Assembly: GCF_900112525.1 (NCBI RefSeq)
Contig: NZ_FOMD01000002.1
Location: 372,001 to 436,000, forward strand
Length of the DNA: 64,000 bases
Direction: 5' to 3'
DNA from: Klenkia taihuensis
GTDB taxonomy: Bacteria > Actinomycetota > Actinomycetes > Mycobacteriales > Geodermatophilaceae
A program made the position numbers and the translations under genes. The notes below the pieces were generated by a model that had not been told where the DNA came from, did not search any database, and saw only the letters and a program-made list of their open reading frames with translations. The first letter of the stretch is position 1; every line of letters starts with the position of its first letter. Shown in pieces: positions 50,850 through 58,319 of this stretch.

Positions 50850-50886
50850 CGCCGTCGTCCACACCGCCGGGCGCCGTCCACAGATG
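50850..50886 (+). promoter_or_regulatory. GTCCACA double element upstream of the helicase gene
   Basis: Two GTCCACA heptamers at 50857-50863 and 50876-50882 lie 19 bp apart inside a conserved frame that opens CGCCGTCGTCCACA and ends CCACAGATG. It ends 44 bp before the helicase start. Matching elements precede the DUF4244 pilin gene and the cpaE-like gene, with the same spacing and orientation. Confidence 0.6.
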
Positions 50887-50930
50887 CCGCGCGGACCTGG
50901 TGGGTTGCCAGCGGGTGTGACAGTGGTGGG

Positions 50931-53516
50931 GTGACGTCGGCCGCCGCCCCGCTGCCCCGGGAGCTCCCGGGCGACGAGCTGCTCGACGCGCTGCTGACCG
51001 GCACGCCCGAGGAGGACTCGCCGGTCACCCACGTGCACCGGCTCCCGGTGCGGCAGGCCGCGCACGGCAGCTGGCCGGCGTGGACGCCGCCGGAGCTGCG
51101 CGAGCGGCTGGTCGCCCGCGGGGTGCGCGAGCCGTGGGCGCACCAGGTCGCCGCCGCCGAGGCCGCGCACACCGGCCAGCACGTCGTCGTCGCGACCGGG
51201 ACCGCCTCGGGCAAGTCGCTGGCCTACCAGCTGCCGGCGCTGGCCGCGCTGGCCGCCGACCCGCGGGCCTGCGTGCTGTACCTGGCCCCGACCAAGGCCC
51301 TGGCCCGCGACCAGCTGTCCGCGGTGGCCGAGCTCGCCCCGTCCGACGTCCGGCCGGCGGCCTACGACGGCGACACCCCGCAGGAGGACCGGGAGTGGGT
51401 CCGCCGGCACGCCCGGTGGATCGTGACCAACCCGGACATGGTCCACCGCGGGATCCTGCCGGCCCACCAGCGCTGGTCCTCCACGCTGCGCCGGGTGGCC
51501 TACGTCGTGGTCGACGAGTGCCACGCCTACCGCGGCGTCTTCGGCTCCCACGTCGGGCACGTGCTGCGCCGGCTGCGGCGGGTCTGCCGCCGCTACGGCG
51601 CCGACCCGGTGTTCCTGCTCGCCTCGGCGACCGTGGCCGAGCCCGCGCTGGCGGCGTCACGGCTGGTCGGGGCCCCGGTGACCGCGGTGACCGAGGACGG
51701 CTCGCCCCGCCCGGGGGCCACCTTCGCGCTGTGGGAGCCGCCGCTGACCGAGCGCACCGGTGAGCACGGCGCCCCGCTGCGCCGCTCGGCGGCCGCCGAC
51801 GCCGCGGGTCTGCTGGCCGACCTGGTGCAGCAGGGCGCCCGGACCCTGGCCTTCGTCCGCTCCCGGCGGTCGGCGGAGTCGGTCGCCGACCAGGCCCGCC
51901 GCATCCTGGCCGACCGCGGCCGCGCGGACCTCTCCCGGCGGGTGGAGTCCTACCGCGGCGGCTACCTGCCCGAGGAGCGCCGCGAGCTCGAGCGCGCGCT
52001 GTCGGCCGGTGACCTGCTCGGGGTGGCCACCACCAACGCGCTGGAGCTGGGCATCGACATCGCCGGGCTGGACGCCGTCCTGCTGGCCGGCTACCCCGGC
52101 ACGCTGGCGTCGCTGTGGCAGCAGGCCGGCCGCGCCGGGCGGGCGCAGCGGGAGTCGCTGGTGGTCTTCGTGGCCCGCGACGACCCGCTGGACCACTACC
52201 TGGCCCACCACCCGCAGGCGGTCTTCGGCCGCTCCGTGGAGGCCACGGTCACCGACCCCACCAACCCCTACGTGCTGGGCCCGCAGCTGTGCTGCGCGGC
52301 CGCCGAGCTGCCCCTCACCGAGGACGAGCTCGAGGTGTTCGGCGGCGAGCCGGCCCGCGAGGCGCTGGACCGGCTGGTCGCCGACGGGCAGCTGCGCCGC
52401 CGGCCCACCGGCTGGTACTGGGCCGGCCGCGGGCGGCCTGACGTCGACATCCGCGGCTCGGGCGCCGAGCCGGTGTCGATCGTGGAGGGCGCCACCGGCC
52501 GGCTGCTGGGCACGGTGGACGGCGACTCCGCGCACTCCGCGGTGCACACCGGCGCGCTGTACGTGCACCGCGGCGAGACCTACGTCGTCGACGAGCTCGA
52601 CGTCGAGGACGCCTGCGCCGCGGTGCACCCCGAGAGCCCGGAGTGGACGACGGTGGCCCGCGACGTCACCGACCTGTCGATCGTCGACGTCGACACCACC
52701 CGGCGGCTGGGCACCGTCACCGCGCACACCGGCACCGTCGACGTGACCAACCAGGTGGTGGCCTACCAGCGCCGGCGGATCGGCACCGGCGAGGTGCTCG
52801 CGGAGTTCCCGCTGGACCTGCCGGCCCGCCAGCTGCGCACCCGCGCCGTCTGGCTGACCCTCGACGAGCGGGCACTGCAGCGCGCCGAGCTGTCGGACCG
52901 GGAGCTGCCGGGCTCCCTGCACGCCGCCGAGCACGCCGCGATCGGCATCCTGCCGCTGCTGGCCACCTGCGACCGGTGGGACCTCGGCGGGGTGTCCACG
53001 GCGCTGCACCCGGACACCGGCCAGGCCACGATCGTGGTCTACGACGGGCACCCGGGCGGGGCCGGCTTCGCCGAGCGCGGGCACGCCGTGCTGCGTCGCT
53101 GGCTGACCGCGACCCGGGCCACGGTGGCCACCTGCGAGTGCGAGTCGGGTTGCCCGTCGTGCGTGCAGTCGCCCAAGTGCGGCAACGGCAACGACCCGCT
53201 GGACAAGGCCGGCGCGGTGCGGGTCCTGGACGTGGTGCTCGACGAGCTGGCCGCCGCCGGTGACGTGGCGACCGACGACGAGGACACCGACGACGACGGA
53301 CCTGCCGACCCGCTGGGCCCGGGGGGTCCCTTCGCGCAGGCCCGGGCGGGCACCTCGGCCGCGCACTCCCGCGCGCTGCGCCGCCGCGCCCAGCTCGGTG
53401 CCCCGCCCCCGGCCCGGGCGGTGCGCCGTCGCCGTCCGCAGCCCAGCGAGGCCGACCCGCCCCCGGCCGACGACGACCCGTTCGCCGACACCCCCGAGGA
53501 CGACATCGTCTTCTGA
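50931..53516 (+). CDS. DEAD/DEAH-box helicase with DUF1998 Cys cluster (tad-neighbourhood type)
   Basis: 861-aa superfamily 2 helicase. Motif I ATGTASGKSLAY, motif II VVDECHAYRG (DECH), motif III LLASATVAEP and motif VI QQAGRAGRAQRES are intact. The C-terminal DUF1998 region carries a four-cysteine cluster in CECESGCPSCVQSPKCGNGN, as in MrfA-type DNA repair helicases. A disordered acidic tail follows. GTG 50931 is chosen; the upstream extension to 50763 crosses the regulatory element. Actinobacterial tad loci have this helicase next door (Rv3649-like). The partner process, repair or DNA uptake, is not settled. Confidence 0.9.
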   Translation: MTSAAAPLPRELPGDELLDALLTGTPEEDSPVTHVHRLPVRQAAHGSWPAWTPPELRERLVARGVREPWAHQVAAAEAAHTGQHVVVATGTASGKSLAYQLPALAALAADPRACVLYLAPTKALARDQLSAVAELAPSDVRPAAYDGDTPQEDREWVRRHARWIVTNPDMVHRGILPAHQRWSSTLRRVAYVVVDECHAYRGVFGSHVGHVLRRLRRVCRRYGADPVFLLASATVAEPALAASRLVGAPVTAVTEDGSPRPGATFALWEPPLTERTGEHGAPLRRSAAADAAGLLADLVQQGARTLAFVRSRRSAESVADQARRILADRGRADLSRRVESYRGGYLPEERRELERALSAGDLLGVATTNALELGIDIAGLDAVLLAGYPGTLASLWQQAGRAGRAQRESLVVFVARDDPLDHYLAHHPQAVFGRSVEATVTDPTNPYVLGPQLCCAAAELPLTEDELEVFGGEPAREALDRLVADGQLRRRPTGWYWAGRGRPDVDIRGSGAEPVSIVEGATGRLLGTVDGDSAHSAVHTGALYVHRGETYVVDELDVEDACAAVHPESPEWTTVARDVTDLSIVDVDTTRRLGTVTAHTGTVDVTNQVVAYQRRRIGTGEVLAEFPLDLPARQLRTRAVWLTLDERALQRAELSDRELPGSLHAAEHAAIGILPLLATCDRWDLGGVSTALHPDTGQATIVVYDGHPGGAGFAERGHAVLRRWLTATRATVATCECESGCPSCVQSPKCGNGNDPLDKAGAVRVLDVVLDELAAAGDVATDDEDTDDDGPADPLGPGGPFAQARAGTSAAHSRALRRRAQLGAPPPARAVRRRRPQPSEADPPPADDDPFADTPEDDIVF

Positions 53517-53522
53517 GGCCGG

Positions 53523-57181: not shown

Positions 57182-58235
57182 CGGCGACCGCCCGCTGCAG
57201 GCGCGGCAGCAGCCGGCGGACCACCTGGCCCAGCGGGGTGCGCGGGCCGGTCTGCGGCGGCTCGCCCCGTTCCCCGCGCGGCAGGGCCGACCGGTCGTGC
57301 ACCAGCTCGGCCAGCACGGGCCGGCCCAGCACCTCGCCGACCTCGGCCGCACCCACCCCGCCCGGCGCGGTGCGGGCGACCAGCACCGCGCGGGCCCACG
57401 CCGGGTCGGCCAGCAGCGGCCCGGCCGCGGCCAGGGCGCGCACCCGGTCGGGCACGACCAGCACGACCAGGTCGGCCTCGGCCAGCACGGGCTCGACCAG
57501 CGCCGGGTCGGCCCGCACCGGCAGGTCGACCACGACCGGGTGGCCGCCGGCCCGGGCGGCGGCCACCACCGAGGCGAGCGCGGCGGCGGGCACCGGCGCC
57601 GGCGCACTGCGGGAGGGCGCCAGCACGTGCACGCCGTGCAGCCGGGGCAGCGCGGCCACGACGGGCCCGCCGTCCACCCGGCCGCGCAAGCCGGCGAGGT
57701 CGGGCCAGCGCAGGCCGTCGGCCCACTCCGCGCCGAGCACCAGGTCCAGCCCGCCGGCCAGCCCGTCGGCGTCGACCAGGACGGTGGCCCGCTCCCCGCG
57801 CACCGACAGGGCCAGCGCCGCGGCCAGCGTGCTCGCCCCGGCGCCGCCGCAGGCGCCGGCGACCACGGTGAGGGTGCCGGTCTCGACCGGCTCGGTGACC
57901 GCCCGGGCGGCCCGCTCGACCAGCCAGCCCTCGTCCTGGGGCAGCCGCACCACCCGTTCGGCGCCGAGGGCCAGCGCGGCGTCCACGTCGGCGCGGCCGA
58001 GCTCGTCCCGCGCGGCGACCACGACCCCCGGCCGCCGCGGCAGGGCGCGCACGGCGGGTGCGGCCAGGGCGTCGGCGCCGACCAGCACCAGCGGGGCCGC
58101 CCGGTGCGCGCGACGGAGGGCGGCCCCGCCGTGGGTGAGCTCGGCGGTGGTGCCGGCGGCGGCCAGCAGGTGCAGCAGATCGTCGACCAGGCCGTCGTCG
58201 GAGCTGATCACGAGGGGATGGGGGGTGGTGTCCAC
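57174..58235 (-). CDS. CpaE-like ParA/MinD-family protein
   Basis: 353 aa. An N-terminal receiver-like domain (about 1-125) without a clear Asp site is followed by a MinD/ParA ATPase domain with a deviant Walker A (ACGGAGASTLAAALA, lacking the usual Lys), VLVDADGLAGGLDLVLG and VVVDLPVRADP. In tad systems CpaE localises the machinery. GTG 58235 opens the tad run. There is no Shine-Dalgarno sequence. The GTCCACA element lies about 48 bp upstream. Confidence 0.86.
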   Translation of the reverse strand: MDTTPHPLVISSDDGLVDDLLHLLAAAGTTAELTHGGAALRRAHRAAPLVLVGADALAAPAVRALPRRPGVVVAARDELGRADVDAALALGAERVVRLPQDEGWLVERAARAVTEPVETGTLTVVAGACGGAGASTLAAALALSVRGERATVLVDADGLAGGLDLVLGAEWADGLRWPDLAGLRGRVDGGPVVAALPRLHGVHVLAPSRSAPAPVPAAALASVVAAARAGGHPVVVDLPVRADPALVEPVLAEADLVVLVVPDRVRALAAAGPLLADPAWARAVLVARTAPGGVGAAEVGEVLGRPVLAELVHDRSALPRGERGEPPQTGPRTPLGQVVRRLLPRLQRAVAGG

Positions 58236-58282
58236 ACCGCGCAGTGAGCACCCGGGACGGCGTCCGCGGGGGCCGTGCGGCA

Positions 58283-58319
58283 CATCTGTGGACAACCCGT
58301 CCGGGTGTGGACGACGGCG
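58283..58319 (-). promoter_or_regulatory. GTCCACA double element upstream of the cpaE-like gene
   Basis: On the minus strand two GTCCACA heptamers (58312-58306 and 58293-58287) are 19 bp apart. The second extends to TTGTCCACA, a perfect actinobacterial DnaA box. The frame CGCCGTC...GATG matches the other two copies. Confidence 0.6.

Follow-up and report, generated by a model that had tools for sequence, protein, structure and literature searches.

What do three intergenic copies of a paired heptamer, lying before a helicase gene and two pilus gene units in a 64,000-nucleotide (nt) stretch of Klenkia taihuensis DNA (the window), have in common, and how far beyond these genes does the pairing extend? 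Each copy, hereafter the tandem element, consists of two GTCCACA boxes in direct repeat (GTCCACA-N12-GTCCACA). A sequence-only reading of the window had proposed a dedicated operator linking helicase and pilus. This link is supported, and the regulon is far wider than proposed: it takes in most of the recognizable transformation machinery and extends across the class Actinomycetes. Judged from sequence comparison, the element is very probably the operator of a natural-competence regulon, serving DNA uptake and recombination; this confidence concerns the operator and not the protein that binds it.

First, could such pairs have arisen by chance? All three proposed sites are present, with their heptamers 19 bp apart from start to start in 3/3, and the window contains no other same-strand GTCCACA pair whose boxes are separated by 4–30 bp. 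The pattern was found 0 times in 100 dinucleotide shuffles of the window; the single heptamer shows no clear enrichment (13 copies vs. 9.0 expected, with at least 13 in 10 of the 100 shuffles). The shuffles, the lack of other pairs in the window, and the reversed-pattern control given below rule out a chance origin. A transposon-borne repeat is likewise unlikely, as outside the boxes the matched 26-mers and their flanks vary from site to site. The distance from the element end to the start codon had been put at 44–82 bp; measured from box 2 to the GTG at 50931 (helicase), the ATG at 54441 (DUF4244 pilin), and the GTG at 58235 (Ssd, a CpaE homologue), it is 48, 85, and 51 nt for elements 1, 2, and 3, respectively.

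Second, the whole 4.3-Mb genome contains 18 exact sites and 0 matches to the reversed pattern. Relaxing the match adds five sites with one mismatch and 15 with two, for 38 sites versus 21 in the reversed control at up to two mismatches, so the excess is confined to the exact and one-mismatch sites, and downstream genes were named for these only. On the pilus side, the exact sites, read in the orientation of the motif, precede four Tad-pilus-related units: the DUF4244 pilin unit, the Ssd-TadA unit, a SAF/CpaB-like gene, and a TadE/G-like gene. On the DNA side, their targets are two SSB-fold proteins, the TIGR03817 helicase, a YraN-ComM-DprA unit, an FHA-FtsK/SpoIIIE ATPase, and a SWIM-SNF2 helicase. 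Further exact-site targets are five AbiEi/DUF559-like genes (L003 and L014 above the Pfam cut-off, L002 and L012 with AbiEi_4 matches just under it, and L005, which has no match and was placed here by eye), two DUF4192 genes, and one aldo-keto reductase gene, whose site we regard as atypical, with no GAT extension and a start at 19 nt. The five one-mismatch sites lie upstream of comEA, comEC, recA, an M23 peptidase gene, and an NfeD-like gene named by eye; the ComEA protein has HHH and SLBB domain matches and stays under the cut-off of the NCBIfam comEA models. The element is therefore found before the competence pilus genes, dprA, and ssb and, as one-mismatch copies, before comEA, comEC, and recA.

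Third, the element is conserved in the family Geodermatophilaceae, where at least one exact site occurs in 107 of 112 genomes and the reversed control matches once (in G050). The five genomes with no exact site are all under 90% complete (74–82%). Blastococcus sp. VKM Ac-2987 has four sites at the 19-bp spacing. We assembled a family set of 138 distinct exact sites, made up of the 18 K. taihuensis sites and sites from 41 relatives (30 genomes represented by their first-listed site and 11 genomes by 90 of 144 sites), with identical stretches dropped. The sites recur upstream of the same gene families, 117 of the 138 falling by tblastn into target classes of the K. taihuensis genome: AbiEi/DUF559-like (21), SSBa (15), DUF4192 (11), SSBb, FHA-FtsK, and YraN-ComM (10 each), ComEA (9), CpaB-like and Ssd (8 each), DUF4244 (5), helicase and RecA (3 each), and single sites at ComEC, SWIM-SNF2, TadE/G-like, and aldo-keto reductase genes. 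At the helicase sites, the element keeps its 48 nt from the helicase start in 3/3.

The geometry of the family set is strict enough to suggest a promoter architecture. At 95 of the 138 sites, the start codon of a coding-like open reading frame (ORF) lies 48–52 nt past box 2 (43 at 50 nt and 38 at 51 nt); the remaining 15 offsets within 40–59 nt account for 14 sites in total. Among 117 aligned sites, the only strong signals outside the boxes are a CGYC 5′ of box 1, a GAT 3′ of box 2, and −10 letters seven bases ahead of the start codon (A in 76% at position 2 and T in 80% at position 6). A TA-rich signal farther upstream, about −31 relative to box 1, proved weak (0.3 bits) and was dropped. From the fixed distance between box 2 and the start codon, together with the −10 letters, we infer that most target mRNAs are leaderless, with the start codon as the apparent transcription start and the pair at about −76 to −51. 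The site centre would then fall near −63.5, a position typical of an activator. In the mechanism that we propose, one protein would occupy both of the direct repeats, YYGTCCACA-N10-YYGTCCACAG, on the same helix face and would activate RNA polymerase from a class-I-like position, with transcription in most targets beginning at the start codon behind a TAnnnT-like −10. The orientation toward the downstream gene, which had been described as uniform, holds for most sites, and some sites apparently serve the opposite direction too: at 8/8 Ssd sites of the family set, a divergent ORF begins 49–50 nt beyond the outer edge of box 1.

Fourth, how far does the element reach beyond the family? Among 394 genomes of the class Actinomycetes, 49 match the exact pattern, and from the 65 non-family places listed we drew a sample of 40 loci with 42 exact sites. 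Twenty-three of the 42 lie 5′ of DUF559-like, SSB, ComM, ComEC, CpaB-like, Ssd, RecA, DUF4192, DUF4244, or M23 genes, one of these assignments being weak (T006, E 8e-4). The looser pattern GTCCACAG-N8-26-GTCCACAG matches in 228 of the 394 genomes and in many of them stands far above its reversed control, as in G121 (18 vs. 1), G159 (13 vs. 1), G368 (13 vs. 0), and G384 (8 vs. 0). Pair spacing is nearly constant within a genome: 31 bp in 7/8 pairs in G384 and 5/6 in G192, 30 bp in 4/5 in G289, and 29 bp in 5/7 in G424; among the matches listed, it is 29 bp in 7/10 for G159 and 20–21 bp in 8/10 for G121. A spacing of 29 bp also prevails in Jiangella aurantiaca (10/12), Serinicoccus sediminis (6/9), and Phycicoccus sp. 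Root101 (10/14 outside a tandem array). This array, at G511:C11:112122-112198, is built of GTCCACACCCGG(C/T)C units of 14 bp each. Across 20 chosen loci with 21 sites in G159, G384, and G121, 11 sites lie 5′ of SSB, Ssd, DUF4192, DUF559-like, CpaB-like, RecA, or M23 genes and one further site lies 5′ of a RadC gene. Other families of the class thus keep much of the target set, often with boxes 20–21 or 28–31 bp apart.

The upstream regions of ComM or ComEC genes at 57 loci, chosen blind to the motif from at most 30 genomes outside the family (L222 and L223, of 30 ComM loci, were excluded), contain GTCCACA 42 times in the sense orientation of the gene versus 4 times in antisense, and its reversed forms 7 and 8 times. 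A box with a start codon 49–53 nt downstream is found 38 times, versus 4–12 for seven control words; for exact words, the count is 12 versus 0–1. Where these upstream regions contain pairs, the spacing is often 28–31 or 20 bp.

Micrococcus offers a link to genetics, as the M. luteus genes with transformation phenotypes appear to match the targets here at the level of gene class. Excerpts of one study report a strong loss of transformation upon deletion of the CpaB-like Mlut_14650 and mutation of the FtsK-like Mlut_07490, and name the helicase Mlut_18140 among the mutated genes (PMC8467076). The K. taihuensis FtsK-like target L434, a 1357-aa protein with FHA and FtsK/SpoIIIE domains that is weakly EccC-like, may be the counterpart of Mlut_07490. 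Of three Micrococcus genomes other than M. luteus, that of M. lylae has ATCCACAG followed after 51 nt by the ComEA start and the other two have no such box; CTCCTGCACAGG-like letters, recognized by eye, are common to the region 5′ of comEA in all three. According to a 2026 abstract, the M. luteus competence regulatory cascade “remain[s] to be identified” (PMC12849477). In the open-licence literature, with few subscription papers or preprints covered, we found neither the element nor any DnaA box at a competence gene of actinobacteria described. The element is thus a candidate for the missing control element of natural transformation in a large bacterial group: a testable operator for actinomycete competence, a bait for its regulator, and a marker of lineages that are likely still transformable. 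Through its targets, it also puts forward the DUF4192, DUF559/AbiEi-like, FHA-FtsK, and SWIM-SNF2 proteins as possible factors in transformation.

Several observations weigh against a competence operator of this reach and geometry. In the family set, 21 of the 138 sites fall in no target class, and the SSBa (15 sites), DUF4244 (5), and recA (3) sites mostly have no start at 50 nt; under the same type of promoter, these three targets would need leadered mRNAs. We know of no competence role for the DUF4192, DUF559-like, and SWIM-SNF2 proteins. Outside the family, 19 of the 42 sampled sites lack a target gene of the kinds listed, including one ComF-like phosphoribosyltransferase named by eye, a 50-residue piece with no NCBIfam match. 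Some ComM and ComEC loci have one box or none, including the ComEC locus of f21 and the loci of most Mycobacteriaceae-like f2 genomes, and many competent-looking lineages have single or degenerate boxes. The box stands at the right distance from the start in one of three Micrococcus species, M. lylae. The looser pattern does not exceed its reversed control in G273 (5 vs. 7) and G294 (1 vs. 4), and the single-heptamer background is high; the looser pattern is also near the control level in Micrococcus, Citricoccus, Nesterenkonia, Nocardia, Mycobacterium, and Pseudonocardia genomes.

Which protein, then, would bind the element? DnaA is the leading candidate, with a dedicated factor a close second, and we put the chance that DnaA is the binder at a little below even. 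Paired DnaA boxes would let the replication initiator switch on competence genes and couple uptake to the replication state or to replication stress; if DnaA binds, transformation is tied to replication. The Streptomyces-type DnaA box has the consensus YYGTCCACA, which each box of the element fits. DnaA control had been raised as an alternative in the sequence-only reading, and it holds up in that the core equals that of boxes clustered beside dnaA: six exact GTCCACA, in both orientations, lie within ~240 bp upstream of the K. taihuensis dnaA (L152), and the same core stands beside dnaA in relatives, for example as 8 boxes in the dnaA–dnaN gap of G384. The single perfect copy of TTGTCCACA reported there was also found and is box 2 of the Ssd site. 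ATCCACA, the other common DnaA core, is among the box variants; DnaA alone has a Bac_DnaA_C domain in the K. taihuensis genome; and DnaA, being essential, would be missed by knock-out screens. A second protein with DnaA domain IV was considered as the binder, and none turned up in the K. taihuensis genome even with E values of up to 10 allowed.

Where DnaA fits less well is in the pair spacing and the 5′ flanks. Against the TT(A/G)TCCACA-like consensus of DnaA-box 9-mers, the sites give a mixed picture: the 5′ TT is rare in the family sites and commoner in those of other families, the GTCCACA core itself being fixed by the search design. The 5′ flank of the family competence boxes is strict (C in 88% at −1 and C/T in 84% at −2), whereas it is looser in the family's dnaA-side boxes. 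In G368 and G215, the dnaA–dnaN boxes are mostly ATCCACA and the paired sites GTCCACA, and the K. taihuensis dnaA–dnaN gap has several one-mismatch forms and no exact heptamer. Neighbouring 9-mers are separated by 10 bp in Geodermatophilaceae and by 19–22 bp in other families, unlike the 2–3 bp that, according to excerpts of a published study, E. coli DnaA favours between paired boxes (PMC11317965). Lineage-specific pair spacing is hard to square with a conserved initiator. That DnaA is the master competence activator across much of the class Actinomycetes, acting through paired boxes 2–3 helical turns apart near −63, is a proposal we hold tentatively, at somewhat less than an even chance.

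The close second, a dedicated non-DnaA competence activator that recognizes an overlapping word and whose dimer geometry has evolved by lineage to 19, 20–21, or 28–31 bp, is a real possibility that we would likewise stop short of calling probable. It would suit a spacing that is nearly constant within a genome and varies between lineages. A candidate type is an HTH_17 (excisionase-like) protein such as Mlut_14660, a putative regulator that was reportedly struck in almost all M. luteus mutants with raised comEA/EC expression (PMC8467076), and seven HTH_17 proteins score above the cut-off in the K. taihuensis genome. Yet no autoregulated transcription factor was recognized among the assigned targets, leaving no candidate of that kind, and the identity of the core with the dnaA-side boxes would be a coincidence. 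In M. luteus, the HTH_17 gene lies beside the CpaB-like gene; no such neighbour was found at the eight family CpaB-like sites or at L275, L179, and L160.

Turning from the binder to the output, a DNA-damage or recombination regulon in place of a competence regulon seems improbable. Among the targets are recA, ssb, helicase, RadC, and nuclease-like genes, recA has a LexA-like palindrome, and DUF222-HNH-like genes of four relatives have an SOS-like box (by eye); however, the target set also holds genes with no place in repair, namely the Tad pilus genes, comEA, comEC, comM, and dprA. The LexA (SOS) box is the palindrome TCGAAC-N4-GTTCGA, which is missing from most sites inspected, and the common element in the logo is a direct repeat with a different sequence. 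LexA and PafBC promoters thus have some targets in common with the element (recA) and differ from it in sequence and symmetry. There is also only a slim chance that the bound protein represses, or merely titrates DnaA: the comEA/EC-raising M. luteus mutants, as excerpted, hint at a possible negative regulator (PMC8467076), but a site fixed 5′ of the −35 region, before a weak −10, suits activation, and titration could work at any distance from the start codon.

How does the element compare with known sites? It shares its heptamer core with actinobacterial DnaA boxes (TTGTCCACA), clusters of that core lying beside dnaA in the same genomes, and differs from them in always being a direct-repeat pair with fixed spacing and fixed promoter distance, in its 5′ CC/TC, which is commoner than TT in the family, and in having competence genes as targets. 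LytTR/ComE-type sites are ~9-bp direct repeats 21 bp apart upstream of a promoter; they too set a pair of direct repeats, roughly two helical turns from each other, before competence genes, with another sequence and without the spacing of 19 or 28–31 bp seen here. The competence operators of other phyla, namely ComK boxes, the CIN-box of sigma-X, and CRP-S sites, are similar in that one cis element is common to pilus, DNA-transport, and recombination genes; their sequence is different, and here the operator would be two direct-repeat heptamers at about −63. None of the ComK, sigma-X, or CRP-S regulators is expected here, since ComK-cascade homologues are absent from M. luteus, according to excerpts of an earlier report (PMC4322843).

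The genes around the three elements are collected in Table 1; their helicase–pilus neighbourhood is already recorded in NCBI family names (“helicase/secretion neighborhood”).

Table 1. The three tandem elements and the genes around them in the window
Feature	Coordinates	Strand	Remarks
Tandem GTCCACA element 1	50857..50882	+	boxes 50857-50863 and 50876-50882; upstream of helicase
Tandem element 2	54527..54552	-	box 1 54546-54552, box 2 54527-54533; upstream of DUF4244 pilin
Tandem element 3	58287..58312	-	box 1 58306-58312, box 2 58287-58293; upstream of Ssd/CpaE-like gene
Small ORF, 105 aa	50456..50773	-	start 83 nt left of element 1; possible second target
MrfA-like DEAD/DEAH helicase	50931..53516	+	TIGR03817, 1214 bits (cut-off 874); MZB domain PF09369
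Rv3654c-family TadE-like protein	53523..54116	-	TIGR03816, 84.1 bits (cut-off 51); ORF from upstream start
DUF4244 (Flp pilin-like) protein	54253..54441	-	first gene past element 2; PF14029, 82.9 bits (cut-off 27)
TadC-like protein	54583..55290	-	T2SSF PF00482, 62 bits
TadB-like protein	55284..56054	-	T2SSF PF00482, 21.6 bits, under cut-off 25.2
TadA-family ATPase	56045..57181	-	TIGR03819, 486 bits (cut-off 373)
Ssd (CpaE homologue)	57174..58235	-	first gene past element 3; TIGR03815, 239 bits (cut-off 154)
HAD-IB hydrolase	58363..59163	+	divergent from Ssd; start 50 nt from element 3 outer edge, mirror-image spacing

The small ORF to the left of element 1 has no Pfam or NCBIfam match. Helicase-type sites of relatives that have no helicase downstream are still kept beside a small left-hand gene, and an element 1-type site may also serve this ORF. 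In relatives, eight unassigned sites lie 3′ of a pyrophosphatase-like gene named by eye, and at no fewer than four of these (S031, S034, S046, and S108) an ORF of similar size starts 84–86 nt from the site. Within 58312-58363, the promoter region of the HAD-IB hydrolase contains a TAGCCT-like −10.

Other side observations concern single targets. The K. taihuensis recA (L021) appears to receive three inputs: besides the one-mismatch pair, it has a PafBC-like promoter and a LexA-like palindrome, each recognized by eye. In the relatives' loci L054, L112, L117, and L119, DUF222-HNH-like genes (by eye) combine an SOS-like box near the start codon with an upstream tandem GTCCACA pair. At L082, L139, and L147, FAD-dependent oxidoreductase-like genes, also named by eye, stand behind the pair with starts at 51, 42, and 50 nt.

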